Shown here piece by piece: positions 25,542 through 63,910 of a stretch of 63,910 nt of DNA; position 1 is the stretch's first letter; every line of letters starts with the position of its first letter. The DNA comes from Gammaproteobacteria bacterium (lineage in GTDB: Bacteria; Pseudomonadota; Gammaproteobacteria; SZUA-152). A program made the position numbers and the translations under genes. The DNA lies in NCBI GenBank assembly GCA_021647505.1, contig JAKIUN010000013.1:1-63910 (forward strand), written 5' to 3'. The notes under the pieces are model-generated. The model had not been told where the DNA came from. It saw nothing but the letters and a program-made list of their open reading frames with translations, and ran no database searches.

Positions 25542-25724
25542 GCTGTTCCACGAATGTGATTATTCTTCTCTCCGCCGTATTCCCCGAGAGAAAACCCCCG
25601 ATAGCACAGCCTCGGACGGCGGCAGATGACGACATCCTGCGCATCTGCCGACACGGCCTATTTCCTCTATGATAAAATCCAGGCCACTCACACACAGCCG
25701 TCCACACGGAACTCAAAACATACC

Positions 25725-27311: not shown

Positions 27312-27478
27312 GCCTACCTCAGGATCATTTTCCACCTCCAGATGTAGGGTGGGCACTGCCCACCTTCATGGCCTGGATCGTCCGCAACTGGTGGACAATG
27401 CCCACTCTTATAACAGGATCGAGTATTTTGTGGCGACACTTCCCTCAAGCTGACGATTGTTTGGAGCCAAGTTCATGA
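27308..27478 (+). CDS. Doubtful 56-codon ORF bridging ligase and decarboxylase genes
   Basis: An ATG overlapping the ligase stop (ATGA) opens a 56-codon frame that ends in a TGA overlapping the decarboxylase start (ATGA). It encodes MSLPQDHFPPPDVGWALPTF..., but the VGWALPT part comes from the dispersed TGGGCACTGCCCACC repeat. The coupling at both ends is striking, yet the repeat content suggests a spacer invaded by a palindrome rather than a genuine protein gene. Confidence 0.2.
   Translation: MSLPQDHFPPPDVGWALPTFMAWIVRNWWTMPTLITGSSILWRHFPQADDCLEPSS
27343..27412. repeat. Dispersed repeat, GTAGGGTGGGCACTGCCCACC type
   Basis: GTAGGGTGGGCACTGCCCACC at 27343 and a degenerate GGTGGACAATGCCCAC near 27390 share their core with the nested repeat at about 8345-8415. 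It is a genome-wide palindromic unit placed within the ligase-decarboxylase spacer. Confidence 0.5.
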
Positions 27479-28710
27479 ACAAACCCCGCCATGCCCCCTC
27501 GGTACTGGAAGCCTTCCCCGTCAAAAAGGGTGAACTCATGATCGGTGGCATTCCTATTACCCGCCTTGCCGACCGTGTCGGCCAGACTCCCTTCTATGCC
27601 TACGACCGACAAAAGATCAGCGAGCGTATCGCCCACCTGCGCAAGCACCTGCCAAGTGAAATTCACCTGCACTACGCCATCAAAGCCAACCCCATGCCCG
27701 CCGTGGTGCAGCACCTTGCAGGGCTGGTCGATGGCTTCGATCTGGCCTCCGGTGGTGAAATGCACGTGGCACTGGACACCGGCATGTCAGCCGACAACAT
27801 CAGCTTCGCCGGCCCCGGCAAGTCGGAACGCGAAATCGCCAGCGCCATCGCCGCTGGAGTTACCCTCAACCTGGAATCGGCAACCGAACTGGAAACAGCG
27901 GCAAGACTGGGCGAGAAACAGGGCATCAAACCCAGAGTCGCGGTACGCGTAAATCCCGACTTTGAACTCAAATCCTCCGGCATGAAAATGGGCGGCGGCC
28001 CCAAGCAATTCGGTATCGATGCCGAGCAAGTGCCCGCAGTACTAAAATGCATCGGTGAACTAGCGCTGAATTTCCAGGGATTTCATATCTTCAGTGGCTC
28101 ACAGAATCTCAGGCCCGAAGCGATCATTGAGGCCCAGGAAAAGACCTTCGCCCTCGCCTATCGGCTGGCCGGTGATGCCCCCTCCGCGGTGTATAAACTC
28201 AATATTGGCGGTGGCTTCGGCATCCCCTATTTCCCGGGTGAACAGCCACTGGATATCACACCAATCGGTGAACGGCTGAACGACTTGCTGGAAGAAAAGG
28301 CCAAGCAACTGCCCGGGACAAAGGTTGTCATCGAACTGGGACGTTATCTGATTGGTGAGGCGGGTGTCTATATCTGTCGTGTAGTGGATCACAAAATTTC
28401 GCGGGGACAGGTCTATCTAGTCACCGATGGCGGCCTACATCATCATCTTGCCGCCTCCGGAAATTTTGGCCAGATTATCCGCAAAAACTACCCCGTGCTG
28501 ATTGGCAATAAAATGGGGAGCAGTGAAACAGAAACCGTCAGCATCGTTGGCCCCCTGTGTACACCACTCGATATTTTGGCGGACAACATGGCCCTGGCAA
28601 AAGCGACTGCTGGTGATTTGGTCGTGGTTTTTCAGTCCGGGGCTTACGGATTTAGCGCAAGTCCACACCACTTCCTGAGTCATCCGCCCCCTCTTGAGGT
28701 ACTGATTTAG
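27475..28710 (+). CDS. PLP-dependent decarboxylase, exosortase A-associated
   Basis: A 411-residue fold-type III (alanine-racemase-like, DAP/ornithine decarboxylase) enzyme. HLHYAIKANPMP holds the PLP lysine, then FDLASGGEM, GGGFGIPYF (phosphate-binding glycines), VTDGGLHHHLAASGN, the GPLCTPLDIL motif with the catalytic Cys and Asp of the family, and GAYGFSASPHHFLSH. It matches the exosortase A-associated pyridoxal-dependent decarboxylases (TIGR03099). The amino-acid substrate is unknown. GGAG lies 9 nt before ATG 27475. With the ligase and ACP it should make an activated acyl or amine building block, possibly for the exopolysaccharide or a lipid; that is inference. Confidence 0.87.
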   Translation: MNKPRHAPSVLEAFPVKKGELMIGGIPITRLADRVGQTPFYAYDRQKISERIAHLRKHLPSEIHLHYAIKANPMPAVVQHLAGLVDGFDLASGGEMHVALDTGMSADNISFAGPGKSEREIASAIAAGVTLNLESATELETAARLGEKQGIKPRVAVRVNPDFELKSSGMKMGGGPKQFGIDAEQVPAVLKCIGELALNFQGFHIFSGSQNLRPEAIIEAQEKTFALAYRLAGDAPSAVYKLNIGGGFGIPYFPGEQPLDITPIGERLNDLLEEKAKQLPGTKVVIELGRYLIGEAGVYICRVVDHKISRGQVYLVTDGGLHHHLAASGNFGQIIRKNYPVLIGNKMGSSETETVSIVGPLCTPLDILADNMALAKATAGDLVVVFQSGAYGFSASPHHFLSHPPPLEVLI

Positions 28711-28832: not shown

Positions 28833-29090
28833 CTAGCGGAGCTTTTCCACTACAAACTCGGTCAGGCTACCCAAGGTCTCAAAAACATCTCCCACTAATT
28901 CGTCGTCTTCGACGATAAAACCAAAACGGTCTTCCAGTCCGGTAATAATCGTGACGACCGCCATAGAGTCCAGTTCGGACAATTCACCCAACAAACCTGA
29001 ATCCACGTGCAACGCAGCGCCGCGCTCGCCCAGCTGCAGTACATCCCCGAGAACTTCTCTTACGGCATTCAGCAAATCAATTTCTACCAC
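28833..29090 (-). CDS. Acyl carrier protein (exosortase A-associated type)
   Basis: An 85-residue acidic helical protein with the phosphopantetheine site ELDSMAV (Ser42), of the short ACP type found beside exosortase A-associated ligases. It starts at GTG 29090 (VEIDLLNAVREVLGDV). It is convergent with the ligase and decarboxylase instead of being in their operon, so its expression follows the minus-strand exopolysaccharide genes. It is the likely carrier for the acyl group activated by the ligase. Confidence 0.85.
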   Translation of the reverse strand: MVEIDLLNAVREVLGDVLQLGERGAALHVDSGLLGELSELDSMAVVTIITGLEDRFGFIVEDDELVGDVFETLGSLTEFVVEKLR

Positions 29091-37874: not shown

Positions 37875-37907
37875 TCTTGATACCCCTCCTTGAAAACATA
37901 ATCTATT

Positions 37908-37930
37908 CAGCAAGCTACTCTTGCTTGCTG
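37908..37930 (-). promoter_or_regulatory. Leader stem-loop before the giant gene
   Basis: CAGCAAGC, a 7-nt loop and GCTTGCTG form a perfect 8-bp stem ending 34 nt upstream of the start codon and just before the strong ribosome site. It could be a regulatory leader element or RNA-stability hairpin; no protein is encoded. Confidence 0.4.
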
Positions 37931-44439: not shown

Positions 44440-46224
44440 TCACTCCCTCTGGTGCATAGAAAACCACTGTTCCAACATCACTAACACCCAAACCAGGGTG
44501 CCGTAATAACTGGGATGGCCGCTAACCAGCTCATTAGAAAGACGATCAATCAGTTCACCACGAACCAATTTACGTTTACGCAAATCAGAAAGACTGTCAC
44601 CCACGAGTTCCGACAGACCACTGTGGCGATGTAACCATGGACCGAAGGGCAGACCAAAACCTTGCTTTTTCTTGGTCAAAACCTCCTGTGGAAGGAAGTC
44701 GGACAGGGCGGTCTTAAAAAACCAGCGCAGCTTATTGCCTTTGAGCTTCATCCCTGGCGGCACCCTGGCCGCAAAGGCAACCATTTCATCGTCCAATAGT
44801 GGATAGGCAACCTCGACGCCGGCCAGAGCACACATTCTGCCCACTTTTTGGAGGTCGTTATCGGCGAGTGTGACTTGATAGTCCAGAGTAAGCATTCGAT
44901 TGAGCAGGCTCTCGGCATTGCTGTCCTCATAGGCTGCACTGAGCACCTGAAAGGGGTGACGCTGATCAATCTGTGATAAAAAGTCCTCGCTCAGCACCGA
45001 CTCAGAACCCAGACGTCCCAGCAAATTATAGGTTTCCATGCGCTCAGGCATGGGGATCTTTGCCTGACTCACATAACTCCGTAATTTGCCAAAACCCGGC
45101 AGTAGCCCCAACGGCCCCATCAGTAACGGCTCCACTAATCCTCGACGCAACCCCTCAGGTACATGGCTGTATGTATGAAATATACGCTGTTTCGCATAAC
45201 GGGTATTGCCGGCGAACAATTCATCACCACCATCACCGGCAAGCAAACGATGTACTCCTGTCTCAGCCGCCATACGCGCACAAAAATAGGTGGGCACAGC
45301 AGAGGAATTGCCGAATGGCTGCTCATAGGCTCGGGCAATACGGGGTATCGCATCGACGATATCTTCTGGCGTCACCCTATACTCATGCATTTTAGCACCG
45401 AAACACTTGCCGGATGTCCGTGCAAACCCCAGCTCATCATAACCCGGCTCATCGAAACCGATAGAGTAAGTCTGTGGTGCTTGGCCACTCACCTTGCCAA
45501 GCATGCCGGTTACCGTAGAGCTGTCTGTTCCACCGGAAAGAAAGGCGCCCACCCGACCATCTGCGACGTGAGCAACAGAGGTTTCCAGCAGGCCAAGAAG
45601 TTCTTGCTTCAGGTCTGCAAAATCTCCCGCGCCATCCTCTTGGTACGTCAATTGCCAATAACGTCGCTCTTCAACCTGCCCGAGATACATCGCCGTCCGG
45701 CCGGGACGCAAACTTCGAATGCCCTCATAGATCGTCTGAGGTCCAGGAATCACATGAAAATAGAGGTAATCATAAAGCGCCTGCGGACGGATTTTACGCG
45801 TCACGCCCAGTCGATGAAAAACATCCATGCGCGTGGAAAATGCCAAACCACCCCAGGGTAAAGTCGTGTAGTAAAGTGGCCAGCTGGCTACACGATCAAC
45901 GAAGGCGCAACCTTGTCCGGATGAAAGATTAAACACCGCTCCCACATAACTGCCATGTAAATGACCAAGGGCTTTTTCACCTTCTCTGGAGAAGGCCTGG
46001 GCCAATCCTGTTGCTGCCCGTTGCCCTGTCTCCCGTGGCCGCCCAACGAGTAGTGCTGCCGTATCACCCTCACAGGCAATCTGTACATTGTCGAAGGGAC
46101 TGCAAGCCGCAACCATGCCGTACTCCCCTTCCAGCAACTGATACTCCGTGCTGCTTTCGGATAGCAGTCCTTTCATGGCGGTGCGTCCTTCAGTCCCACC
46201 CAAATAGCCGAATAATTCGATCAC
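44440..46224 (-). CDS. Asparagine-synthetase-like amidotransferase lacking the glutaminase cysteine
   Basis: A 594-residue protein with an N-terminal Ntn-type domain and a C-terminal AsnB synthetase domain (pyrophosphate loop GAFLSGGTDSSTVTGML, then LLAGDGGDELFAGNTRY and LLDDEMVAFAARVPPGMKLKG). It begins MIELFGYLGG: the catalytic Cys2 of true glutamine-dependent asparagine synthetases is missing, so it probably uses ammonia or another amine, like beta-lactam synthetase, or forms a different amide or ester. It ends an operon with two acyltransferase-like genes and a TPR gene. A second, cysteine-containing paralogue is at 57240. Confidence 0.85.
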   Translation of the reverse strand: MIELFGYLGGTEGRTAMKGLLSESSTEYQLLEGEYGMVAACSPFDNVQIACEGDTAALLVGRPRETGQRAATGLAQAFSREGEKALGHLHGSYVGAVFNLSSGQGCAFVDRVASWPLYYTTLPWGGLAFSTRMDVFHRLGVTRKIRPQALYDYLYFHVIPGPQTIYEGIRSLRPGRTAMYLGQVEERRYWQLTYQEDGAGDFADLKQELLGLLETSVAHVADGRVGAFLSGGTDSSTVTGMLGKVSGQAPQTYSIGFDEPGYDELGFARTSGKCFGAKMHEYRVTPEDIVDAIPRIARAYEQPFGNSSAVPTYFCARMAAETGVHRLLAGDGGDELFAGNTRYAKQRIFHTYSHVPEGLRRGLVEPLLMGPLGLLPGFGKLRSYVSQAKIPMPERMETYNLLGRLGSESVLSEDFLSQIDQRHPFQVLSAAYEDSNAESLLNRMLTLDYQVTLADNDLQKVGRMCALAGVEVAYPLLDDEMVAFAARVPPGMKLKGNKLRWFFKTALSDFLPQEVLTKKKQGFGLPFGPWLHRHSGLSELVGDSLSDLRKRKLVRGELIDRLSNELVSGHPSYYGTLVWVLVMLEQWFSMHQRE

Positions 46225-46232
46225 TGACCTTC

Positions 46233-47378
46233 CTATGACTTGTTTGAATTTTTCATGTTGCGCAAACGATGCACCAAGGGTTTAACATGTCTGTCCAACA
46301 ACCCTAAAATGCGACCACGCACGGTGTAACCGTAAACGGTGAAACGCTGCAGCGGTTCCCCATTTTCGAGCCATCGCGCCTTGTAGGGATTATCTCCCGG
46401 CCCCATCCAGTAACGTTCACCACCCTCCTCGCAGACCTGCATCAGTATCTGCCAAAAAAGATATGTACCCGGCGAGCATGCCTCAAATGCAGTGTCATAA
46501 TCTGCGCGCAACGCATAAATCTGCCCCTCATGATGCAGTTGATACTCGCTGGCAACCGCTTGCCCGTCTAAAATCAGATACCATATTACCACCTGTCCCT
46601 GCCCGGCCAGCTCCTCGGTCAGCCGACGAATGAAGGCCTGCGGTCCCGTGTTGTCCAGAGTCAGTCCTGTGCTCTGCTTCCAACTCGCCGCTGATACCCG
46701 CACAAGCTTATCCAGACAGGCATTAACTTCAGCCTCCTCAACCCGAACACGCTCTAACTGAATGTCTGCAAACTGTTTCTTGAGTCGATTGCCCACATGG
46801 TTATTACCCTTTTTCAGGCGTCGACTACGGGTTGCATAGTAAGCTTCCCAGCCACTCGAAAGACCCAGCCAGGCATTTGAGTCAGCCACCCCTTCACTGG
46901 CCAAAAGACCTTGCTTACGCAATGCGGGGAGCAAAAATTCCTGCACCATAGACCCCTTATCAAGATGGCTGAATTGAAGCTGATCCCAGTCCTGTTGTCC
47001 GGCAAGATGATTCGCAAAAGCCTCGGCTGCTGCCGGAGCCACATCCCGGCGACAGACCATATCTGCAAATTGCGTATCGGGTACGGTCAGGTAACCAAGG
47101 CGATGTAGCTTGAGCCCATATTTCGACTCGCTATCACGCACAAGTGGCAGGATCGCGATAATATCCTGGCCATCCTCGGCAACCAGGCAATAAAGCTCAG
47201 CATCCTCAGCTCGCCATTCCCATGCTGCCAAGTGCCATTGCGGTGAGAGAAACAGCCGATGTCCAGGCACATGCTCCAAGAGTTCAGACCACGCCGAACG
47301 TAGCATCTCAAAACCAGCAAGCTCCCGTACTTCTCTGACCTGGAGAGAGTTAGTCACATGCTTCAACATTGTACTCAA
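46233..47378 (-). CDS. BioF2-like/GNAT acyltransferase
   Basis: A 381-residue protein of the Acetyltransf_6 (CelD/BcsL, BioF2-like) type: FLSPQWHLAAWEWRAEDAELYCLV, SRRLKKGNNHVGNRLKK, then YLILDGQAVASEYQLHHEGQIYALRADYD and PGTYLFWQILMQVCEEGG in the double-GNAT core. Such enzymes acylate polysaccharides or other small substrates with unknown donors. The start overlaps the stop of the TPR gene (ATGA); the AsnB-like gene starts 8 nt after its stop. Confidence 0.8.
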   Translation of the reverse strand: MSTMLKHVTNSLQVREVRELAGFEMLRSAWSELLEHVPGHRLFLSPQWHLAAWEWRAEDAELYCLVAEDGQDIIAILPLVRDSESKYGLKLHRLGYLTVPDTQFADMVCRRDVAPAAAEAFANHLAGQQDWDQLQFSHLDKGSMVQEFLLPALRKQGLLASEGVADSNAWLGLSSGWEAYYATRSRRLKKGNNHVGNRLKKQFADIQLERVRVEEAEVNACLDKLVRVSAASWKQSTGLTLDNTGPQAFIRRLTEELAGQGQVVIWYLILDGQAVASEYQLHHEGQIYALRADYDTAFEACSPGTYLFWQILMQVCEEGGERYWMGPGDNPYKARWLENGEPLQRFTVYGYTVRGRILGLLDRHVKPLVHRLRNMKNSNKS

Positions 47379-47971
47379 GGTTTATCCGCCGCCATCTCGG
47401 ATGTCGGTTGCCACTTATCCGCTCTCTCCAGCTGCTTGCGCAAACCCGGTAATGGATAACCCAGTGCATAGGCCTTCTGTGCAGCCTGGTTGGCCGCTTC
47501 ATATTGTTTCAGTTTGAAATAGGCCAGCCCAAGATTATAATGCGCCTCCGCCATATCAGGGTCACGTTTCAAGGCCTCCAGGTAACGTTTGACCGCTTCG
47601 CTCAATTGGCCATGGCGATGATAAAACAGACCATAGATCACCCATGGCGCGGCCGGCTCGGGGTCGAAGAAAACCGCTTTTTCGAATAATTCTTTCACAT
47701 GACGCATATCGTTGGACTTAAAGGAAAGATCTATTGCCAACATCAGCGCATCTGGATGATTGGGAAAATGTCGTAGCATGAAATTCACATCCGTCCAAGC
47801 ATAGCTTGGATTTTCCCAGCGGGCCTTCTCCCTCGCTTGCGGAAGATGGTGCCGCTCTACGGCGCTCAGATGTGCGGGGTTAGGATTTCCGTAATAACTC
47901 TCAGAGGCCGGTGTTGCTGCCAACACAGGCAACGCCATTCCCAGCAACAGTATACAGGTGATTATCTTCAT
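47375..47971 (-). CDS. Secreted TPR-repeat protein
   Basis: A 198-residue protein with signal peptide MKIITCILLLGMALPVLAA and three tetratricopeptide-like repeats (about 85-175, clearest in DMAEAHYNLGLAYFKLKQYEAANQAAQKAYALG). The location suggests a periplasmic scaffold for polysaccharide assembly or PEP-CTERM processing. It is embedded in an operon between two FemAB/BioF2-type genes, 16 nt after the first and overlapping the second by 4 nt. Confidence 0.8.
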   Translation of the reverse strand: MKIITCILLLGMALPVLAATPASESYYGNPNPAHLSAVERHHLPQAREKARWENPSYAWTDVNFMLRHFPNHPDALMLAIDLSFKSNDMRHVKELFEKAVFFDPEPAAPWVIYGLFYHRHGQLSEAVKRYLEALKRDPDMAEAHYNLGLAYFKLKQYEAANQAAQKAYALGYPLPGLRKQLERADKWQPTSEMAADKP

Positions 47972-47987
47972 AAAAATTCCTGTTCAG

Positions 47988-48998
47988 TTAGACCCGACTC
48001 GCCTTGCCATCAGCAGTATGCTGCCGCATTGCACGCCGTTTAGCCACATGACACATCATTCGTCCCTTGATCGTGGGGGCAAAAATACGCATAAAGGCAC
48101 GAGGCTCCATTCGGGTGGCCCAACGACGCTTCCAATCCGTGACTGGATCCAGCATGTCAAGGCACTTGACATCAGCCTGCTCATATAAAGCACGAAGAAT
48201 GTAGCGCTGCAGGACATTCCCCGGGCTAAACTTGGCCAGATCCTGCCGATAGGTTGTCTTCCATCCGTAAGCCATTTCCGCATTAATAATCATGATATTG
48301 GCTGCAATCATCTCGCCATCAAGGCGCAAAGTATAGAGCCGCAGCGCATTCCGCTCCCGGGCCAGCTGAAGCACATCGGCATAAAATTGGCGTTCCAGCG
48401 GCTTGCAATTGATAGCGCTATCGCCATCTCCTTTCCAACCCTGCGCCTCAAGGCTGAATATCAACGCCAGACACTGCTTCCAGTCGGCCCGAGAAGCACA
48501 TTCTTCAAAAACCAAATCCCCTTGCCGCTTCAACCCATTTTCGGCCCGGTTGGTATTGGTACGTAGCTTTTTCGACATGCCACCTTTGGCATAATCCTCC
48601 CAATCACCTTCGATATCTATCATCGCGGTATGCGGATGCTCTTCCACCAATACCGGCCAGCCCTTCTGCTCCAATGCCACACCGGCACGATGAAGCGCAG
48701 AATCCCAAGGCACAAATTCCAGCTGTAACCAATCCCAGGCACACTGCCGCCGAGACCGTTGTAACATCTCAGCCAATTCAGCGCTTCCCTCCTGCCCATC
48801 AAAAGGGATACTGAAAAAGGGGCTGTGCTCATTCGCCGGCGCCCGGAGACAATACAGAGGAATACCAAACTGAGAGGTTCGCTCGACCAAGAACGGGAAC
48901 ACGTTGTCCCCAACAGATAGTGAACGGGATTCAGCCCCAGAGGCAAAAGCCTTTATCCAGGCATCAAACCACTGGGGACTGGAAAAGAAATCATCCAT
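47988..48998 (-). CDS. FemAB/BioF2-like acyltransferase
   Basis: A 336-residue GNAT-superfamily protein: MDDFFSSPQWFDAWIKAF at the start, SKKLRTNTNRAENGLKRQG in the middle (the FemAB basic loop) and LRLYTLRLDGEMIAANIMIINAEMAYGWKTTYRQDLAKFSPGNVL in the second GNAT half. ATG 48998 overlaps the previous gene by 8 nt; GTG 49013 upstream is in frame but less likely. It probably transfers an acyl or amino-acyl group to a sugar, together with the neighbouring paralogue at 46233. Confidence 0.78.
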   Translation of the reverse strand: MDDFFSSPQWFDAWIKAFASGAESRSLSVGDNVFPFLVERTSQFGIPLYCLRAPANEHSPFFSIPFDGQEGSAELAEMLQRSRRQCAWDWLQLEFVPWDSALHRAGVALEQKGWPVLVEEHPHTAMIDIEGDWEDYAKGGMSKKLRTNTNRAENGLKRQGDLVFEECASRADWKQCLALIFSLEAQGWKGDGDSAINCKPLERQFYADVLQLARERNALRLYTLRLDGEMIAANIMIINAEMAYGWKTTYRQDLAKFSPGNVLQRYILRALYEQADVKCLDMLDPVTDWKRRWATRMEPRAFMRIFAPTIKGRMMCHVAKRRAMRQHTADGKASRV

Positions 48999-49986
48999 TT
49001 TTTGCGGCACCACTTATACTGAAATACAAAGCTCTTGTAAAATGTCTTGGGTTAAACGCCACCTTTTTCATTTTATTTCTAAACAGAAAGCACAATGCCG
49101 CTACATATGCCTCAAACCCTTTCATTGATGCGCTATAAATCAGATTCCCTGCTGCCACAGAAAACTGTTTTTTCGTTACCGCTTGCTCCGATGCATCAAG
49201 CGTCAACTGAAACGAATCATCCAGCACCTTTCTTAATGCCCGAAAAGAAAAATAGTTAATTTGCAATGCGTTTTTTTCGTTTGTAATATTGGCCTCATGA
49301 TCTCTACAACCAACGGTTAATTTTTTCGTGTATATAAAATTCCCCTGCTTCGAAAGTCGCAATAAGAAATCATAATCTTCCATAACACAAAAACCTTCAT
49401 CAAAAAAATGTAACGAAGCAGCCACATCGCGAAAAAACATCAAACTTGACGGCACAATATAATTACCGGGCACCAAACTTTTATAGAGCCCCGAGCCGAG
49501 CCGATGATGCTCTCCCCCGGATTCCGGTATACCACATGCAAGCATCTTTTCTTTTGAAAACCATTCATTCATAATTACGTTTTCTGAAAAAATATAAATA
49601 TCTCCAAAAACTAGGATACTATCAGGAAATTTCAGGGCGGCAGACTCAAGGAATGCCAAATGACTGGAACACCAAACATCGTCAGCATCCAACAAGGCAA
49701 CCCAGCCCTGCTGAGTTATTTTAAGTGCCGCATTCCTTGCCGCTGGCAGCCCCGCATGCTCTTGACTAAGCACCTGAACGGAAAGATCATTATCTTTCCG
49801 CCACGCTTCGATCAATTCCTGAGAATTGTCCGTCGACCCGTCATCCACGATGATGATTTCATCTGGCCTCCGGGTCTGAATGGCGACGCTATCAAGTGCA
49901 TCGACAATAAACCTTGCGGCATTATAGACCGGAATAACGACACAGATGTCAATTGCCGTCTCGGCATTCGAATTAGGCATATTCAT
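48991..49986 (-). CDS. Glycosyltransferase family 2 protein
   Basis: A 331-residue GT-A enzyme: ICVVIPVYNAARFIVDALDSVAIQT, IIIVDDGSTDNS, GWVALLDADDVW (DxD), and FDEGFCVMEDYDFLLRLSK. Strongly AT-rich codon use compared with the core genes suggests recent acquisition. The end overlaps the following acyltransferase gene by 8 nt, so it is part of that operon. Confidence 0.88.
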   Translation of the reverse strand: MNMPNSNAETAIDICVVIPVYNAARFIVDALDSVAIQTRRPDEIIIVDDGSTDNSQELIEAWRKDNDLSVQVLSQEHAGLPAARNAALKITQQGWVALLDADDVWCSSHLAFLESAALKFPDSILVFGDIYIFSENVIMNEWFSKEKMLACGIPESGGEHHRLGSGLYKSLVPGNYIVPSSLMFFRDVAASLHFFDEGFCVMEDYDFLLRLSKQGNFIYTKKLTVGCRDHEANITNEKNALQINYFSFRALRKVLDDSFQLTLDASEQAVTKKQFSVAAGNLIYSASMKGFEAYVAALCFLFRNKMKKVAFNPRHFTRALYFSISGAAKNG

Positions 49987-51072: not shown

Positions 51073-52060
51073 TCACATATTTGGGAAATCTGCCAACAGG
51101 CCCCGCCGAAAGGCATCCGCAACGCGCATGATGAACCGAAGTGGCGTTTTATCCCAGCTGTTGATGCGCGCCAACTGATAGCGGTCACTGGCCGCACCAT
51201 TGACCGCCCACGCCGTTGAGACAACCGCAGTAAACCCCGCAGCGCGCAGCATTTTAGCATGCTCATCGCCATAGTCCTTACCGGGTTGCCCATTGGGATA
51301 CGCAAACAGTCCCACTGGCTGCTGCAAAATATCTTCAAGATGCGAGCGACTGTCAATAATCTCCTCTTGCGCCTGCCCTGCGGAGAGACGAGAGAGAATC
51401 GGATGATTGACGGTGTGGGCACCAATTTCAACGCCTCCCGCAGCCAGCATCTTCAGTTGTGATGTCGTCAACATCAGATCATCAGGAAAATCACACCCAG
51501 ATGATCCGCAAGCTCATCCGCCCGTTGCTTGCATTCATCCAGAAGCAGTATTTTAAATGATCGATGACGGTCTGGATCAAGAAACGGCGAGCGTCAACGC
51601 CGTCTACTTGCGCCGGCTCCAGATTGATGGGCGAAAGATCTACCTCTCCGTCAGGTACTCGCCTCAGCGTTTCGATCACCGTATCGTTCCACATGATGCC
51701 ATCATCGATAAATCCGCTCGCAACGAACACGGTCGCAGGCAAATCGAATTCATGCAGCACTGGCAAAGCCTGAGTGAGATTATCGGCGTAACCATCATCG
51801 AAGGTGATGGCAACGGCCCTGGGTGGCAGGCTGTGGCTGGCGAGTCGTTCCACCGCCTCGGTCAACGGCAAGACGTTGCAGGTGGCCGCTACAGCCGCCA
51901 TCTGCCAGCGAAAGGTGTCCAGATCCGGTTCCCTGGGGTGCAGCGGATCAGCATTCGGCAGCACCCGGTGATAAATCAGTACCGCCAGACGCCTGTTGCG
52001 CCCGCCACGGAACCATAACCCCGTCAACGCGCGCCCAAGATAGCAACCGGGCCCCTTCAC
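51073..52060 (-). pseudogene. Polysaccharide deacetylase interrupted by two frameshifts
   Basis: GTG 52060 overlaps the O-ligase stop (GTGA) and opens a NodB-type deacetylase (VLIYHRVLPNAD, ITFDDGYADN, IMWNDTVIETLRR). After VIDHLKY at about 51546 the frame breaks; one extra C would restore LLLDECKQRADELADHLGV. A second break at about 51483 would be repaired by one more C (IFPDDLMLTTSQLKML). The rest (51474-51073: GAHTVNHPILSRL, AYPNGQPGKDY) is in frame. Both breaks are missing-C events next to a C, so sequencing error is possible as well as decay. Layout is the same as the intact gene at 22224. Confidence 0.85.
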
Positions 52061-53331
52061 ACCCGCCCCCTCAGGGGAGGTGTTTGTGGCCCCATGACGC
52101 CTTTCTCCTTCATCAAATGATGTAGCACCGCAACCATCGCCATGATGTGATAGGGCAGATCAAAGTAGGCCAGGCCAAGAAAGGCCCCACCCACTGCATA
52201 CCCTGCCATGCTGACCTGCAACATGGCAGCCAGATCCCGGGCCCACGTCAAATCATCCCGCCCCTTACACTGCCGGACAATGTTGCCAGCAACTCTGTAA
52301 GTGGCAAACCACATAATCAGAAACAACCCCAGTCCGACAAAGCCCTGCTCCGCCAGAATTTCAAAATAGATACTGTGGGCATCATGAAAAGCTGTGGGGT
52401 CGGGAGCATATTTCCTGAACAGTTCCGGTGTAAACGTGTCGAACCCACCCCCTGTCAATGGTCGGTCTTTGGCCAGATTAAAGGCAAAATGCCAGGCATT
52501 GATTCGCCCCATGGCCGAGCGATCTTCCTCAAAGTTCTCGATGGTAGACATGCGATCAAACCACTGCTGGGGAAGAAACATCAAAACTGCCCCCACGATC
52601 ATCACCCCCACTACACCGATCGCAAATTTATGCCGGCTCTTTAACCAAAACATGAAGGCCATCACACCACCCGCCAAAAAAGCACCACGCGAATAACTGG
52701 CCACAATAGACGCCGTACACAATAGCATGGCTAACACCAACCCACGGCGAACCCATTTGTTGTCACTCGTCAACTGCAAGTAGCGAAACAGGGGCAGAAC
52801 AATAATAAGCGCCAATGCCAACTCATTATTACCCTCGATAAAACTGCCTGGCGGCCCCCAAACCCGAAAACTCCCCCCAGTGGCAATTGTAAAAAAACCA
52901 CCTTTAATGCCGAAAAAACCAATGGACAAAGCCAAAACCCAAACCAGAGTGTGCAGTTTTTCCCGATCATTAATCAACAAAAAGGTGACCAATATCATCA
53001 TTTGAATTTTCAGGGCTCGAGTCAGCTCCGTTACCGAATGACCTGGATCAATAGCCGCGGCGGTGGCTATACACATCCAAAGAACAAATAGTGCCCACAG
53101 AACCACCAGCGGACTATTTGGCAGTTTCTTTGGTTCCTTGGAAAAAATCATGCTTACTAGGGTGACAATGGCCACAACCTGGACAAAGGGGAAACTGTAA
53201 GCAAACCCCCAACTCAACCGGTGCGGGTTCATATACCCCAACCATGACCAAAGGTACACGCCAATGCTGGGGCGCATTAAAACCATTGGCAACAGACCAA
53301 AGACGATCAAGGTAATAACGATATCACGCAA
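52057..53331 (-). CDS. O-glycosylation/O-antigen ligase, exosortase A system-associated
   Basis: A 424-residue polytopic protein with about ten to eleven membrane helices and a Wzy_C-type periplasmic loop (NAWHFAFNLAKDRPLTGGGFDTFTPE, DAHSIYFEILAEQGFVGL). The N-terminus MRDIVITLIVFGLLPMVL and GVYLWSWLGYMNPHRLSWGFA is the signature of the exosortase A-associated ligase family (TIGR03097). TTG 53331 with GGAG 8 nt upstream is chosen because homology starts there; the longer frame to 53376 is not conserved. It probably polymerises or attaches the glycan to its acceptor on the periplasmic side. Confidence 0.88.
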   Translation of the reverse strand: MRDIVITLIVFGLLPMVLMRPSIGVYLWSWLGYMNPHRLSWGFAYSFPFVQVVAIVTLVSMIFSKEPKKLPNSPLVVLWALFVLWMCIATAAAIDPGHSVTELTRALKIQMMILVTFLLINDREKLHTLVWVLALSIGFFGIKGGFFTIATGGSFRVWGPPGSFIEGNNELALALIIVLPLFRYLQLTSDNKWVRRGLVLAMLLCTASIVASYSRGAFLAGGVMAFMFWLKSRHKFAIGVVGVMIVGAVLMFLPQQWFDRMSTIENFEEDRSAMGRINAWHFAFNLAKDRPLTGGGFDTFTPELFRKYAPDPTAFHDAHSIYFEILAEQGFVGLGLFLIMWFATYRVAGNIVRQCKGRDDLTWARDLAAMLQVSMAGYAVGGAFLGLAYFDLPYHIMAMVAVLHHLMKEKGVMGPQTPPLRGRV

Positions 53332-53426
53332 AGTTGGCGCTCCACATGCCCAAGACGGCAAGGCTCCTGCAAGCATTTATTGTTGATGAAAACGCTATCA
53401 ATTTATCACCTTCACAACTAATCTCA

Positions 53427-56071: not shown

Positions 56072-57243
56072 GCCGCCTGTTCCGCCAAAACTCGTTCAAA
56101 CAGTGCTTTCTGCCCCTGGCTGGTCGCATCCCAGCTAAAACCCTCCGCATAGGCCCGGGTTGCAGTCCGTGACGGAGGGCTGGCAAGCAAAGCCCGCACT
56201 TCAGCAGCCAGGGATACAGGTGTTCGCTCGGCGAGCCTTCCCGCATCATCAACGGCCACCACCTCTGGCGTACCCCAAACCCGAGTTGCCACCACGGGCG
56301 TCCCGCAGGCCATGGACTCCAACAGTACATTAGCCCAACCCTCGCGGCTGGAAGCCAACACCAGGCAATCCGCAGCGCCATACCAGTCCTTTAGCCCGGC
56401 ATGCGGCAGGGCGCCCAGGAAACGCACCCGCTCCGTGAGACCCAGGCTCACGACCAACTCGCGCAACGCTCCTTCTTCGGGACCATCACCAGCGATAGCC
56501 AGCATCATGTCCGGCAACGCCTGCAAGGCACGGATCACCAGATCATGACCTTTACGGGTAATCAGGTGTCCCACTGACAGCAGGCAAGGCCGATCAATAC
56601 CCAGGGCCTGACGTAGCGCCTCACGACCTTCTGGTGGACGAAAAATGCTCAGATCCACACCATTGCGCAGCACCTGCACCCGCCCTGCCGGCACATCGAG
56701 ATCCACCAGTACATCTTTCAGCGCCTGGCAGACCGTAATCATACCGGCTGCCTCGCTGGCCGCCCATTGGATCAAGCGCCGTGGCCGGGGATGCTGGGGA
56801 ATCAGGTTGAGGTCGGTGCCACGAGCTGTGATCACCACTGGCACACCGAGGCGTTTGCCCAGCGTAATCGCCGCCACACCATCCGGATAGAAATAGTGGG
56901 CATCAATCAGTTGAAAAGGGAATTTCTCCCGCAACCTGCGCAGCAGGCCCAGACTGGCCATTGCCATACTCCGAGGGGCCATGCCCATGCCAACCTTGGG
57001 CAGCAAAAGATAACGCGGATGATGGACATGAATCCCGTGCCGCTCATCCTCACGGGGGGTAGCAGCCATTTGGGCATATTCACCAAAACACGGATGCCGG
57101 GACGGGAACCATGGCACCGGAGACACCACCTGTGCTTCAACACTACTGTGATCGATCAGGTGGCGCAGGCGGTTTTCCACGAACACTCCATGCCGCTGCC
57201 GTGCGCTGGAGGGATACAGACTCGAAAACGTTAGAATTTTCAC
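56068..57243 (-). CDS. Glycosyltransferase family 4 protein
   Basis: A 391-residue GT-B enzyme: MKILTFSSLYPSSARQRHGVFVENRL, LIDAHYFYPDGVAAI, VITARGTDLNLIPQHP, LSVGHLITRKGHDLVIRAL and SSREGWANVLLESMACGTPVVATRVWGTPEVV. Overlaps both neighbours by 4 nt (amidotransferase upstream, GT4 downstream), so it is firmly in the core operon. Confidence 0.9.
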   Translation of the reverse strand: MKILTFSSLYPSSARQRHGVFVENRLRHLIDHSSVEAQVVSPVPWFPSRHPCFGEYAQMAATPREDERHGIHVHHPRYLLLPKVGMGMAPRSMAMASLGLLRRLREKFPFQLIDAHYFYPDGVAAITLGKRLGVPVVITARGTDLNLIPQHPRPRRLIQWAASEAAGMITVCQALKDVLVDLDVPAGRVQVLRNGVDLSIFRPPEGREALRQALGIDRPCLLSVGHLITRKGHDLVIRALQALPDMMLAIAGDGPEEGALRELVVSLGLTERVRFLGALPHAGLKDWYGAADCLVLASSREGWANVLLESMACGTPVVATRVWGTPEVVAVDDAGRLAERTPVSLAAEVRALLASPPSRTATRAYAEGFSWDATSQGQKALFERVLAEQAA

Positions 57244-59147
57244 GCCCCACTCCCTTCCCCCATGAGCTGGCGCAGACTGGACTCAAACATGAGCAGAGAC
57301 CAGAGGGTGGCGCTGTGCTCCCGTCGTCCGGACTGGTGCTCATCCACCAATCGCCGCACGACCGCTGGCTCAAACAGGCCGGATCGGGCCAGGCTGCCCT
57401 CCACTAACTGAGAACGCACCCGCTCCCGCAGAGGACCGCGGAACCAGGCGGAAATTGGCACGCCAAAACCCATCTTGGGACGGTAGAGAATGTCGTTAGG
57501 CAAAACAGGTTCCAGGGCCTTTTTAAACAAATACTTGCCTTCACGACCCTTGAGTTTGACCTGCGGTGGAAGACCTGACACCCATTCTACAAATTTGTGA
57601 TCCAAAATAGGCACCCGCACCTCCAGTGAATGCGCCATCGAGGCGCGATCCACTTTAGTAAGAATATCCCCCGGCAGATACGTCTTCATATCCAGGTACT
57701 GAATCAGAGACAGGGGATGGTCGGTAGGTGCACGTTCCGCATGATAACGAAACACCTCAAGAGCCGTGTAACCCTGCAATTCCTTTTTTAGTTCAGGTGT
57801 AAACAGCTCCTGACGATGGCTTTCCGAAATCACTCCCACGCTATGCAGGTAGGCGGCCATGCTGTCGCGGGCCAAGGCCTGAAAAGTGGTCTTGGCCCGA
57901 AACATCTTGGGAGCCCAGTCCATTTTGGGATAAACCTGACCCAAAAAGCCAAACAGGGGGCCGCGCAACCATTGGGGCAGACGCCCACGCAACTGTTCTT
58001 CGTTCATGTGCCAACGATGACGACGATAACCGGCAAAATTCTCGTCACCACCATCACCCGACAGGGCAACCGTGACATGTTTTTTCGCCAGCTCACACAC
58101 CCGATAGGTTGGAATCGCCGAGCTGTCGGCAAAGGGTTCATCGTACAGGGAGGCCAGATTATCCAGTAGCGCAAAGTCATCCGCCTCTACCTGATCCACA
58201 AAGTGCCGTGTCTGATAACGTTCAGCCACCTGGGCCGCGAAATTTGCCTCGTTGAACTTGGGGTCACCGAAGGAAATGGAACACGTGTTGACGGGTTCAT
58301 CCATCAGCTTTGCCATCAAGGCCACGATTGCCGAAGAATCCACCCCACCGGAAAGAAAGGCTCCAAGTGGCACCTCGGAGACCAGGCGGATATCCACGGC
58401 TTCTTTGAGTCTCTCTAGCAAAGACGACTCCCATTCCGCTTCCGGCGCATCAGGCTGGGCCTCGAAGGGAATATCCCAATATTGACGTGGCTCACCCGGT
58501 GGATTACCACGACGCACACTCAGGCAATACCCTGGAGGCATCTTGCGCACGCCCTTGAGAATTGTCTTAGGCTCCGGGACATAGCCTAGGGCACAGTAGT
58601 CTTCCACCGCCTGGGCATCAAATTCCCGCCCCAAACCTGGATGGATCAACAGAGACTTAAGCTCCGAACCAAAAATCAGCTGGCCATCGGGCAATAAGGC
58701 ATAATAGAGCGGCTTGATCCCCATACGGTCACGGGCAAGGAACAGGGTTTGCCGATTGCGATCCCAGAGGGCGAAGGCGAACATACCGCGAAAACGTTCC
58801 AGGCAGGCCTCACCCCACTGCTCCCAGGCATGGACGATAACCTCAGTATCCGAATAAGTGCGGAACTCATGGCCGAGCTGCTGCAGCTCCTTGGCCAGAC
58901 TGGTAAAATTGTAGATCTCTCCGTTGTAGACCACCACCACACTATGATCTTCGTTGAACAAAGGCTGCTGTCCTGACGCAAGATCAATGATGGACAGACG
59001 TCGGTGACCGAGGCCGATTCCGGGCTCATGGTGAAGGCCACCTTCATCGGGCCCACGATGGTGTTGTGTCTCGTTCATCCGCGACAATAATTCAGCATCC
59101 ACCAGCCGCTGTCCCTGGCTGTCAAAAATTCCGACTAATCCACACAT
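57240..59147 (-). CDS. XrtA/PEP-CTERM system amidotransferase (asparagine synthase family)
   Basis: A 635-residue class II glutamine amidotransferase. MCGLVGIFD gives the catalytic Cys2, HHRGPDEGG and YNGEIYNF complete the glutaminase site, and GAFLSGGVDSSAIVALMAKL and LSGDGGDENFAGYRRHRWH form the synthetase site. It fits the exosortase A-associated amidotransferase (TIGR03108). It should transfer ammonia from glutamine to an activated carboxylate, probably on a sugar acid or precursor. ATG 59147 follows AAAGAAGAA; the longer frame to 59255 lacks homology. A 129-bp gap separates it from the sugar transferase before it. Confidence 0.92.
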   Translation of the reverse strand: MCGLVGIFDSQGQRLVDAELLSRMNETQHHRGPDEGGLHHEPGIGLGHRRLSIIDLASGQQPLFNEDHSVVVVYNGEIYNFTSLAKELQQLGHEFRTYSDTEVIVHAWEQWGEACLERFRGMFAFALWDRNRQTLFLARDRMGIKPLYYALLPDGQLIFGSELKSLLIHPGLGREFDAQAVEDYCALGYVPEPKTILKGVRKMPPGYCLSVRRGNPPGEPRQYWDIPFEAQPDAPEAEWESSLLERLKEAVDIRLVSEVPLGAFLSGGVDSSAIVALMAKLMDEPVNTCSISFGDPKFNEANFAAQVAERYQTRHFVDQVEADDFALLDNLASLYDEPFADSSAIPTYRVCELAKKHVTVALSGDGGDENFAGYRRHRWHMNEEQLRGRLPQWLRGPLFGFLGQVYPKMDWAPKMFRAKTTFQALARDSMAAYLHSVGVISESHRQELFTPELKKELQGYTALEVFRYHAERAPTDHPLSLIQYLDMKTYLPGDILTKVDRASMAHSLEVRVPILDHKFVEWVSGLPPQVKLKGREGKYLFKKALEPVLPNDILYRPKMGFGVPISAWFRGPLRERVRSQLVEGSLARSGLFEPAVVRRLVDEHQSGRREHSATLWSLLMFESSLRQLMGEGSGA

Positions 59148-59276: not shown

Positions 59277-60476
59277 CTATTCGCTGTCATGAACAGCTCT
59301 GCCCTTGATCTGCGGCGCAGAGCCTATCACATCACTGTAAAGTGCCAGATAGCGTTCTACCATCCCTTCAATACTGAACTGCGCGAGCACCCGCTTCCGC
59401 CCTAGCGCCCCCTGCTCGGCCACCACCGCCCGGTTCTGCAAATAGTGTTCAATTGCATCGGCCATAGCTACGGGGGAGCAAGGCTCGACTAGACTCCCTG
59501 TCTCTCCGTCCACTACCAGTTCAGGATTGCCACCCACAGCCGTGGCCAGCACTGGCACGGCGGAAGCCATAGCCTCCAATATCGTGTTAGACACTCCTTC
59601 TGTTTGCGATGGCAGCACGAATAAATCCAGCTGGCGCATGATCTCCGGCACATCGCTACGAGCACCCGGCATCCATACCAAACGACGCACAGCATCATCC
59701 CGGGTTTGCAGAAACTTCTCAATCAGCTCACGTAATCCACCATCGCCGATCAAAACCAAACCCAGTTGGTTTCGATAGACGGGATCTCTATCAATCAATA
59801 TCAGAAAGGCCTGTACCAGTGTCAGCTGATCTTTTTCTGCCGACAAACGACCCACAGTACCGACAATAAATCGCCCCTGAAGGCCACTAGCCACCCCCAG
59901 ATTTCCCACATCAGTAGTTTCATAAGGTCGGAATCGTTGCGTATCCACGCCATTATACAACTGAACTACCTTGCAGGAAGGCACACTATTACCACACACC
60001 AGCCATTGCCGGGTATCCCTGGAAAGGGCGACATAACGGTTGACTAGTGGGCTCATCAGGCGCCGCAACAACCGGTGCCGTCGATTACTGCCATCCAGAT
60101 CCCGCATGTCCCGGCCATGCTCACCATGAATACAACCACGTACTCCGCACAGCCGTGCAATCACCTGCGCCTCCAGAGTGCCGATATTGCGGGTGTGGAC
60201 AATATCCGGCTGAAGCTCGCGAAAAATCTTGAACAGCCGAAGGTAAATCCCGAAGTCCTTGCCAGGCTGCTTGTGCAGAGCCTTGACCGTCACGTTCTCC
60301 GCGCTGATCCGATCCACAAATTCGGTAAAGTCTGTCATACAAACGATGGCATGCCGGAAACGCCCCGCAGGGGTATGGTTGATCAGATTGACCAGACCAT
60401 TCTCCAACCCACCCATCTGCAAGCGGTGAACGACATGCACGACCAGCGGTGGCTGACCCGGAGTCTCCCCCGTCAT
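59277..60476 (-). CDS. Sugar transferase, PEP-CTERM/EpsH1 system-associated (TIGR03088-type)
   Basis: A 399-residue GT4 enzyme with the diagnostic N-terminus PPLVVHVVHRLQMGGLENGLVNLINHTP, then YNGVDTQRF, GTVGRLSAEKDQLTLV and LPSQTEGVSNTILEAMASAVPVLAT. This family occurs with exosortase A loci. The start overlaps the xrtA stop by 4 nt (ATGA), so both are made together. Confidence 0.92.
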   Translation of the reverse strand: MTGETPGQPPLVVHVVHRLQMGGLENGLVNLINHTPAGRFRHAIVCMTDFTEFVDRISAENVTVKALHKQPGKDFGIYLRLFKIFRELQPDIVHTRNIGTLEAQVIARLCGVRGCIHGEHGRDMRDLDGSNRRHRLLRRLMSPLVNRYVALSRDTRQWLVCGNSVPSCKVVQLYNGVDTQRFRPYETTDVGNLGVASGLQGRFIVGTVGRLSAEKDQLTLVQAFLILIDRDPVYRNQLGLVLIGDGGLRELIEKFLQTRDDAVRRLVWMPGARSDVPEIMRQLDLFVLPSQTEGVSNTILEAMASAVPVLATAVGGNPELVVDGETGSLVEPCSPVAMADAIEHYLQNRAVVAEQGALGRKRVLAQFSIEGMVERYLALYSDVIGSAPQIKGRAVHDSE

Positions 60477-61999
60477 GGTTTCAGGCTTGCTCTGAGCACA
60501 GGCAACATATCGGCCAAAAACCCCTCCAGAACTTCCCGTCCTTCCGCAGGCGTTATTTCATAATCGGTCGACAGAATCCAGGCTGCCGATCCACGATTCG
60601 AACCCTGCAATCGCCCCCAGGCCTCATAGGCCTTAACCTGTAACTGGTGAATACTCGTGGTACCATCCACCTCGTACCATAACCACACTAGGCGATTCCC
60701 CCGGGCATTGCCTATCCAGGTTTCGTGCACTGCCCACTGCTGGCCGTCGGGCAAGTACGCCACACCATCTCCGTCCCCCAGACGCCGCATAGACTTAGGG
60801 TCATAGACCCGGTTCTGCCAATTGATCAGCTCCGCATCCTGAACCTGCACCGGATAATAAGCAAGATAGACCTGCACTCGTCGACCTTGTTTGTGATATT
60901 CGCCGCGGCGCTCTACGGCCCCGACATACCTTGGCCAATGCAATTCGTCATTGCTGGAAGGCCCCTGCCAGCCGCTACGCCCCACCGGTAAAACCGGCTC
61001 CCAGGCTGACGCCGCCTCGCGTTGAGCATCCATCCAGGCAGCGAATCCTGGTGCGCTAATCGCGAGCCCCGTGGCAATAACCGCCCACAGCACAAATACC
61101 CGGCCACTGACAGCTTGTCCTTTTACTGCGGCCAGAGACGATGTGATTTTGGTATCTTCCCGGGGTGTCTCCTGGAAACGGGATCCAACCCAGAACAGAA
61201 GCAAAATGACCACACCGAAGAACAGCCAGCCATAGACCAGGTGATCGACCCCGACAGCAAGCTTGTAATCACTCAGGTGGGCAATCATCACGATGCCATA
61301 GGCGCGAACTCCGTTGGCAATAAGGGGAATCACTACCGAAAACCCGACGAACACCCAGCGCCGCCAGGGCGTAGTGAAATTTAGGTACGCATAGAGTGTG
61401 CCGAGAGCCAGGGAGGCAATGAGGTAACGAATACCACTACACGCCTGTGCGACTTCAAAAGAGCCACTGGGAATATGGAAAAAAAGCCCCTCCCAATAAA
61501 CGGGGATACCGGTGAGCTGCAAAGCCCGAACGCTAAAAGCTGCCGTCAAATCCTGCAAAGGCGGCACCAAAAAGTCACCAATGGGCACCGCAAAAAAGAG
61601 ATAAGCCAACGGGAAGAGGATTTTTCGAGCCACTTGGGTGCCAAAAATTGTCCAGGTAAGAGCCGGCACAATCATCACGGCCGCTAACTGCTTGGCTGCC
61701 GCCACTTCAGCCGCATAACCCAGCACCCAAACGAATACCATACCCAACAGCATCAACAGGGCCACGGGGGCCGGTCGCGGTGCCAGGGGGGCCAAAGCCG
61801 CCCGCTTCAACCAGATCAGGTAGCCGACAATGGGCAGAATCAGGAACCCGTGAGCAAAAGTCTCGGAACGCCACCAGATGGCAACAATGTCGCGATAGGT
61901 CTCCCAAAACACCAAGCCGATGACGAGCAGTGACAGGCAAAATACCGTGCTGGCGGGCCGCCAGTCAGGAGACCATGACAGAGAGCGTGACTCTTTCAT
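60473..61999 (-). CDS. xrtA: Exosortase A with C-terminal EpsI domain
   Basis: A 508-residue protein. The N-terminal part (about 1-275) has eight or so membrane helices with the exosortase active site: Cys187 in AQACSGIRYL, Arg232 in ANGVRAYG and His253 in DHLVYGW. Residues about 300-505 form a periplasmic EpsI/DUF3485 domain (WQGPSSNDELHWPRYVGAVERRGEY..., VYLAYYP, VWLWYEVDG). XrtA/EpsH cleaves PEP-CTERM proteins at the membrane, a sortase-like transpeptidation by analogy. The likely substrates include the giant surface protein at 31983-37874. Both neighbouring sugar transferases overlap by 4 nt. Confidence 0.96.
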   Translation of the reverse strand: MKESRSLSWSPDWRPASTVFCLSLLVIGLVFWETYRDIVAIWWRSETFAHGFLILPIVGYLIWLKRAALAPLAPRPAPVALLMLLGMVFVWVLGYAAEVAAAKQLAAVMIVPALTWTIFGTQVARKILFPLAYLFFAVPIGDFLVPPLQDLTAAFSVRALQLTGIPVYWEGLFFHIPSGSFEVAQACSGIRYLIASLALGTLYAYLNFTTPWRRWVFVGFSVVIPLIANGVRAYGIVMIAHLSDYKLAVGVDHLVYGWLFFGVVILLLFWVGSRFQETPREDTKITSSLAAVKGQAVSGRVFVLWAVIATGLAISAPGFAAWMDAQREAASAWEPVLPVGRSGWQGPSSNDELHWPRYVGAVERRGEYHKQGRRVQVYLAYYPVQVQDAELINWQNRVYDPKSMRRLGDGDGVAYLPDGQQWAVHETWIGNARGNRLVWLWYEVDGTTSIHQLQVKAYEAWGRLQGSNRGSAAWILSTDYEITPAEGREVLEGFLADMLPVLRASLKP

Positions 62000-63257: not shown

Positions 63258-63910
63258 TCAGCCCAGATTTCTCACGATATGCGGCCCCAGCCATTGGGTC
63301 ATACCCAGGGGCATCTTGCGCCAGAGCTTAATGAACATCTGATACTTGGGATTATTGGGATTGACCTCGGGTATCTCCTGCGCCCGAACCAGATAATATT
63401 CGTAATGCAGTGGTTCGGGCTCAAAACCCCAGTTCTTTTTGAAACTGTAGGATCCAGCACCCTGCTTGCTACGGCCATAATCGAAGATGCGAACGCCCTC
63501 TTCTGCTGAATGGCGCATGAGTTCCCAGTACATGAAATCATTTCCCTTTAATGTACGTGCCTCAGCCATGCCTCCACCATAATAAGGTAATACTTCATTG
63601 CGAAAGTAAAAGCTCATCACTGAAGCAATGGTTCGGCCATCCTTGGTGATCGTCAGTATACGGCAATCATCACCAAACTCATTCCGCAGGATCGAGAATA
63701 ACTTGCGTGAAAAGACCGGTGTTCCCAAGGCATGCACACTCTGCGAATAGGCGTCATAGAAACGGTCAATGCCATCGTCCCAGCCGGATTCGAGACCGGC
63801 CTTGATGCCTTTTCGTACCATGGCACGCTGTTTACGCGGAATGTTTTTGAGATTCTGCTCCGGATCAGGATCGAGTTCCTTGCGGAAAGTGACGTACAGA
63901 TCTTTGTGCG
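63258..63910 (-). CDS. FemAB-family XrtA/PEP-CTERM-associated protein, 5' end outside window
   Basis: About 216 residues are visible, reading in from the right edge (HKDLYVTFRKELDPDPEQNLK, NIPRKQRAMVRKGIKAGL) without a start. GNAT/FemAB features follow: FSRKLFSILRNEFGDDCRILTITKDGRTIASVMSFYF, LPYYGGG, FMYWELMRHSAEEGVRIFDYGRSKQGAGSYSFKKNWGFEP. It fits the exosortase-associated FemAB family (TIGR03019). It should add an acyl or amino-acid group, possibly to the glycan. It is the first visible gene of the core operon on this strand. Confidence 0.92.
   Translation of the reverse strand, partial: HKDLYVTFRKELDPDPEQNLKNIPRKQRAMVRKGIKAGLESGWDDGIDRFYDAYSQSVHALGTPVFSRKLFSILRNEFGDDCRILTITKDGRTIASVMSFYFRNEVLPYYGGGMAEARTLKGNDFMYWELMRHSAEEGVRIFDYGRSKQGAGSYSFKKNWGFEPEPLHYEYYLVRAQEIPEVNPNNPKYQMFIKLWRKMPLGMTQWLGPHIVRNLG

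Follow-up and report, generated by a model that had tools for sequence, protein, structure and literature searches.

The contig JAKIUN010000013.1, from a gammaproteobacterium of the lineage SZUA-152 (assembly GCA_021647505.1), encodes an enzyme of the asparagine synthetase B (AsnB) type, here called ASN2, which lacks Cys2, the glutaminase nucleophile, and raises the question of what it joins and where its amine comes from. The whole stretch of 63,910 nucleotides, hereafter the window, is one entire contig (C35) of a genome of 3.74 Mb, 98% complete. In a first-pass annotation, made from the sequence alone, ASN2 and three adjacent genes, for two FemAB/BioF2-type transferases and a secreted TPR protein, had been read as a possible module for the amide-forming decoration of a polysaccharide. 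The analyses reported here lead to a related proposal, to which we give about an even chance: ASN2 acts in the surface-glycan pathway of exosortase A (XrtA) as an ATP-dependent amide synthetase whose amine is not supplied by a glutaminase of its own. The special features of the glycan of this exosortase and the acceptor of its PEP-CTERM proteins matter to the understanding of flocs and biofilms formed by bacteria in wastewater and freshwater; a near-core XrtA gene, similar to asparagine synthetase yet without glutamine use of its own, would be a chemical clue, pointing to an extra amide.

The ASN2 protein begins with MIELFGYLGG, with Ile at position 2, and none of the 19 in-frame codons upstream of its GTG offers a Met-Cys start. 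A mis-called start concealing Met-Cys, named in the first-pass annotation as a way in which its reading could fail, was rejected on this ground, and the absence of Cys2 stands. Among relatives, only one (L104) has a later internal ATG reading MCGF, and two proteins with the same N-terminus (L093 and L098) have Ile there. The protein matches PF00733 (Asn_synthase) with an E-value of 9.5e-79, while a sub-threshold match to GATase_7 is confined to residues 76-136. No model passed its cut-off when the protein was scanned against NCBIfam: it scored 221.2 bits against TIGR01536, the glutamine-hydrolysing asparagine synthase (curated cut-off 267.1), 262.4 against TIGR03108, the XrtA-associated amidotransferase (cut-off 816.9), and 77 against NF033535, a lasso peptide cyclase (cut-off 525). 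The paralogue at 57240, here ASN1, is the normal Cys2 enzyme that the first-pass annotation had described: it reaches 1083.5 bits against TIGR03108, and its Met-Cys start, at 59147, lies 108 bases inside the start given in the table of open reading frames (ORFs).

Relatives of ASN2 were collected from a family sample, in which 15 of 24 genomes matched at 1e-40 and 12 ASN2-type places were found in 11 genomes, not counting that of the window; from a class sample, in which 54 of 369 genomes matched at 1e-90, including two that the family sample had also yielded; and from Janthinobacterium. The resulting set comprises 66 loci, that of the window included and one genome (G018) counted twice; 56 of its members were taken into alignment A1 and 50 into a quick tree, where ASN2 forms a separate clade with full support. 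Residue counts were compared with those of 13 ASN1 and 5 other Cys2 proteins (n=18).

Cys2 is retained in none of the 66 ASN2 members, as opposed to all 18 comparison proteins; the N-terminal starts of the relatives were picked by script, in one set by alignment and in the other by a motif score which takes no account of position 2 and gives credit for Gly3, residues 4 and 5, Gly6 and an aromatic-type residue at 7. Met-Cys starts are also found in 69 out of 69 distant relatives of AsnB with a length of 520 aa or more, encoded on viral contigs (among L129-L208), where 'MCG' was sought first and the first Met taken otherwise; since the residue is missing throughout the clade and present throughout both other groups, its loss is more than chance. 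The rest of the glutamine pocket is gone as well. By ASN1 numbering, His48 and Arg139 are kept in 0/66 ASN2 members, Arg49 in 1, Asn75 in 2 and Asp100 in 6, against 17/18 for Arg49, 17-18 of 18 for His48 and 18/18 for Asn75, Asp100 and Arg139 in the comparison proteins. The HRRLSIID loop is gapped out, the Leu51 column being a gap in 66/66. Mean identity within the ASN2 clade is 19% over the first 75 residues and 49% over the synthetase part. In ASN1 the order is the opposite, with 70% over the first 105 residues and 63% over the synthetase part. By these comparisons ASN2 has lost its glutaminase, and the annotation 'asparagine synthase (glutamine-hydrolyzing)' misleads for the whole clade. 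Separately, it was observed that AsnB-type amidotransferases are encoded on many viral contigs (L129-L208).

The synthetase motifs are intact. The checked residues of SGGxDS, GDGGDE and KxKxGFG are present in all 66 members, so that the loss of the glutaminase with retention of the synthetase motifs, noticed by the first-pass annotation in a single protein, extends to the clade and goes beyond Cys2 alone. Purifying selection acts on the synthetase part in 9 of 9 close pairs (omega 0.03-0.22). The N-terminal domain is constrained too in eight of these; the exception, L119/L120, has an omega of 1.24 at a very low synonymous divergence (dS), which makes it a weak estimate. A degenerate gene specific to the window was rejected as an explanation, the loss being common to 66 members under purifying selection. 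An AlphaFold model of ASN2 (pLDDT 87.1, pTM 0.89) contains both domains of the AsnB fold, and structures are matched over both, with Z-scores of 32.3 for TsnB9, 28.4 for E. coli AsnB, 26.6 for beta-lactam synthetase and 25.6 for carbapenam synthetase.

As to the substrate, Asn306 of ASN2 aligns with Arg325 of E. coli AsnB, which we take to be the aspartate-binding residue; it is Asn in 66/66 ASN2 members and Asp in 17/18 Cys2 proteins. Asn340, Arg500 and Lys518 are likewise present in 66/66 and, within the sample, specific to ASN2. These residues make ASN2 look unlike an ordinary asparagine-forming enzyme, and its substrate is probably other than that of ASN1.

The genomic setting of the enzyme is the exosortase A system. 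The minus strand of the window carries most of an XrtA surface-glycan locus, with XrtA itself, the TIGR03087 and TIGR03088 glycosyltransferases, TIGR03108 and TIGR03097 (Table 1), and 11 PEP-CTERM motif matches above cut-off were found in the genome. Within the class sample, XrtA was found above cut-off in 73 genomes, ASN1 in 65, ASN2 in 54 and the XrtA-associated ligase in 45. The pairing of ASN2 with both XrtA and ASN1 is near-obligate: XrtA is present in 49 of the 54 ASN2 genomes (Fisher p 7e-37) and ASN1 in 51 (p 9e-46), in tests that ignore kinship among genomes, and 45 of the 53 strongest XrtA genomes hold ASN2. In a phylum sample ASN2 was found in 3 of 299 genomes, all of the same class and one of them that of the window. 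ASN2 is a near-core companion of XrtA loci.

Table 1. Location of ASN2 and of the associated features in the window
Feature	Positions	Strand	Description
Ligase	25626..27311	+	TIGR03098 AMP-forming ligase, XrtA-associated; possibly same pathway
Decarboxylase	27457..28710	+	TIGR03099 pyridoxal phosphate decarboxylase, XrtA-associated; possibly same pathway
Acyl carrier protein-like ORF	28833..29090	-	85 aa, DSMA carrier-serine motif
ASN2	44440..46224	-	AsnB-type synthetase with vestigial N-terminal nucleophile (Ntn, glutaminase) domain, without Cys2; GTG start, 594 aa
GGAAGG	46228..46233	-	Shine-Dalgarno-like, ends 3 bases before the ASN2 GTG; read from sequence
FEM1	46233..47378	-	PF13480 (Acetyltransf_6, GNAT/BioF2-like) transferase, 381 aa
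TPR protein	47375..47971	-	198 aa, signal-peptide-like N-terminus (by eye)
FEM2	47988..49013	-	PF13480 (GNAT/BioF2-like) transferase, 341 aa
O-ligase	52057..53376	-	TIGR03097 putative O-glycosylation ligase, XrtA system
ASN1	57240..59147	-	TIGR03108 XrtA amidotransferase with Cys2 (MCGLVGIFD)
Exosortase A	60473..61999	-	TIGR03109, with EpsI domain
FemAB family protein	63258..63910	-	TIGR03019, XrtA-associated, cut by contig end; listed ORF 63258-63821

The four-gene array described by the first-pass annotation is real. FEM1, the TPR gene and FEM2 lie directly upstream of ASN2 on the same strand, with gaps of 8 bases between ASN2 and FEM1 and 16 bases between the TPR gene and FEM2, and an overlap of 4 bases between FEM1 and the TPR gene; the order FEM-TPR-FEM-ASN2 recurs in two other loci (L076 and L109). 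The right-hand limit given to it, 48998, misses the ORF start at 49013 by 15 bases. FEM1 and FEM2 score 84.5 and 95.2 bits against PF13480 (gathering cut-off 22), and neither matches TIGR03019 or PF02388 at E <= 0.001; amino-acid transfer by the two proteins is unproven, because PF13480 is matched and those models are not. The idea that the four genes act as a unit did not survive the comparison among loci. A profile search places a PF13480-like gene no more than 3 kb from ASN2 in 15/66 loci, a TPR gene in 21/66 and both in 9/66, and a same-strand PF13480-like gene less than 200 bp upstream of ASN2 in 10/66, against the pairing with XrtA and TIGR03108 at the genome level. What the four genes represent is one local form of a wider system, in which the FEM and TPR neighbours are optional.

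In the proposed mechanism, a carboxylate would be adenylated by ASN2 at the SGGxDS / GDGGDE / KxKxGFG site and attacked by an amine from a source other than a glutaminase of its own, the enzyme acting in the XrtA pathway beside the glutamine-dependent ASN1. Most likely, an amino compound would be joined to a sugar acid, either in the XrtA glycan or in its protein-linking unit; the amine could be an amino acid, an amino sugar or a product of the set formed by the ligase, the decarboxylase and the acyl carrier protein. The FemAB/BioF2-like transferases of the locus might add further acyl or aminoacyl groups, and the amide would decorate the XrtA glycan or the acceptor receiving the PEP-CTERM proteins. 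A bolder extension, which we consider unlikely, is that ASN2, ASN1 and the TIGR03019 FemAB protein together make the exosortase A acceptor, in the form of a linking sugar that bears an amide and an aminoacyl group and would receive the C-terminus of cleaved PEP-CTERM proteins on its free amine; between species, the amine would be varied by the FEM/TPR genes and the ligase-decarboxylase-carrier set.

Several points weigh against the proposed mechanism. Free ammonia could serve ASN2 as its amine. The acid found at the Glu348 position of E. coli AsnB in normal enzymes of this type is kept in ASN2 (Asp331; 66/66), and the motifs therefore prove no amine acceptor. Once XrtA (p 0.21) or ASN1 (p 0.13) is present, ASN2 shows no significant association with the ligase gene. 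Finally, 51/66 loci have no FemAB-like gene and 45/66 no TPR gene within 3 kb, in regions often cut by contig ends.

The first of these points, together with the conserved acid, is at the core of an alternative that we regard as possible, if somewhat doubtful, in which ASN2 makes primary uronamides, the product type of WbpS, from free ammonia or from ammonia released by the glutaminase of ASN1. E. coli AsnB also uses free ammonia, and a potential supplier, ASN1, is encoded in 51 of the 54 ASN2 genomes. The residues specific to ASN2 (Asn306, Asn340, Arg500 and Lys518), by which it differs from ASN1 and the other Cys2 proteins, suggest instead a different substrate, and ASN1 does not need ASN2, which is absent from 14 of the 65 genomes that encode ASN1. 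A glutamine-dependent enzyme within part of the clade would be conceivable if the cysteine of the frequent N-termini MSGICGW and MTGICGW, at position 5 rather than 2, acted as the nucleophile after removal of a short leader; propeptides are known from some class II amidotransferases, and Cys occupies this column in 28/66 aligned members. The column is Phe, Trp or Ala in the others (Phe in the window protein) and Val, Ala or Thr, mostly one of the first two, in Cys2 proteins, and of the 28 members concerned Arg49 is kept in 0, Asn75 in 1 and Asp100 in 1, which makes the idea scarcely credible.

It is quite improbable that ASN2 closes an intramolecular amide, for instance a sugar lactam, in the manner of beta-lactam and carbapenam synthetases. 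These enzymes have lost a domain in a similar way, the ASN2 profile finds them (E 3e-13 and 1e-13, respectively), and their structures, which match over both domains with Z 24.6-26.6, rank among the best in the fold comparison. Identity in the fold alignments is 16-19%, and AsnB and TsnB9 are closer in both sequence and fold, the fit of AsnB being slightly better. Beta-lactam synthetase has a catalytic Tyr-Glu dyad; the best stretch aligned between the ASN2 profile and its structure 1jgt stops at chain residue 310. A role of ASN2 as a scaffold or regulator of the glycan machinery, devoid of catalysis, would agree with one of the two domains being vestigial, and is made highly improbable by synthetase motifs retained in 66/66 members, under a purifying selection stronger there than in the N-terminal domain.

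The regions around ASN2 contain further recurrent genes. Counts over the 66 regions are lower bounds, because sampled loci often end at contig ends; ORF calls in the relatives are mechanical, with some wrong-strand ORFs in high-GC genomes. An O-ligase was found in 36 regions, a polysaccharide deacetylase in 33, a TPR gene in 29, a PaaK-like AMP ligase in 21, ASN1 in 19, and the TIGR03100 and TIGR03101 hydrolases in 11 and 8; the names of the PaaK-like ligase and of the two hydrolases derive from one representative each. In the genome of the window no TIGR03100 hydrolase was found above cut-off, and the deacetylase gene (51073-52060, minus strand) is split into two ORFs of 189 and 133 aa in different frames, where relatives mostly have 300-360 aa in one frame; the frameshift belongs either to the organism or to its assembly. 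A protein of 471 aa (42009-43424, minus strand), encoded two genes downstream of ASN2, fuses a hexapeptide-repeat acyltransferase to a sulfotransferase domain (PF13469). In six loci (L036, L039-L043) the TPR-ASN2 pair is adjoined by an opposite-strand gene; one representative (L041) gives sub-cut-off matches to NCBIfam models of the carbamoyl phosphate synthase-like (ATP-grasp) kind and could encode another amide-forming ligase. The ligase, the decarboxylase and the acyl carrier-like ORF resemble amino-acyl carrier systems such as BtrI/J/K, and a short protein like the last is also encoded in three other loci (L035, L095 and L096). ASN2 was considered as a part of this ligase-decarboxylase-carrier module and rejected, the association being not significant within XrtA or ASN1 genomes. 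An ORF of 1976 aa (31983-37913, minus strand), near a beta-helix protein (29154-30317), has no NCBIfam match at E <= 0.001.

With respect to known systems, ASN2 shares with beta-lactam and carbapenam synthetases a vestigial N-terminal Ntn domain beside a retained adenylating domain of the AsnB type. The pattern invoked by the first-pass annotation holds as an analogy, in domain loss and fold, rather than as evidence of membership of that family. The best match of ASN2 in both sequence profile and fold is the hydroxyamidotransferase TsnB9 (7ylz), which differs in product class, judged by name; the ASN1 profile matches it from residue 1, while the match of the ASN2 profile begins at position 79. 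The TIGR03108/WbpS-type amidotransferases have in common with ASN2 the AsnB fold, the synthetase motifs and the location in XrtA loci, and both ASN1 and ASN2 are without Arg at the Arg325 position; ASN1, unlike ASN2, retains Cys2 and the glutamine pocket, and the two belong to separate clades.

Asparagine synthetase genes are also known from floc-forming bacteria. According to the available portions of the papers, floc-formation clusters contain two of them (PMC9012009, PMC7662799), and asnB and asnH of Zoogloea are cited as needed for floc formation (PMC7662799, PMC9012009). Like ASN2, these two are of the asparagine synthetase type and belong to a conserved cluster for exopolysaccharide in bacteria with PEP-CTERM proteins; one of them may correspond to ASN2. 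A Rubrivivax cluster holds three asparagine synthases, two of them hit by transposons (PMC3684757), of which one may correspond to ASN2, and in Thauera such a gene lies near a deacetylase gene needed for flocculation (PMC4784049). In the accessible parts of the floc and exosortase literature searched, we found no mention of glutaminase loss and no proof that the ASN2 clade depends on glutamine, which the first-pass annotation had named as evidence against its reading.

A precedent for parts of the proposed chemistry is the Wbp/Vim pathway of Porphyromonas gingivalis, in which, as far as the accessible text of the report goes, an AsnB-type enzyme, VimA and a deacetylase build an amidated, aminoacylated sugar that is joined to secreted proteins (PMC7468200). 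The AsnB-type enzyme forms the uronamide of the linking sugar, and VimA, which matches TIGR03019, determines whether that sugar carries Ser or Gly as its amino acid. The AsnB homologues that this report places in exosortase loci have TIGR03108 as their top match, and the portion available makes no reference to the ASN2 clade; its authors suggest, as a speculation, that a compound of this sort is also produced by exosortase systems.

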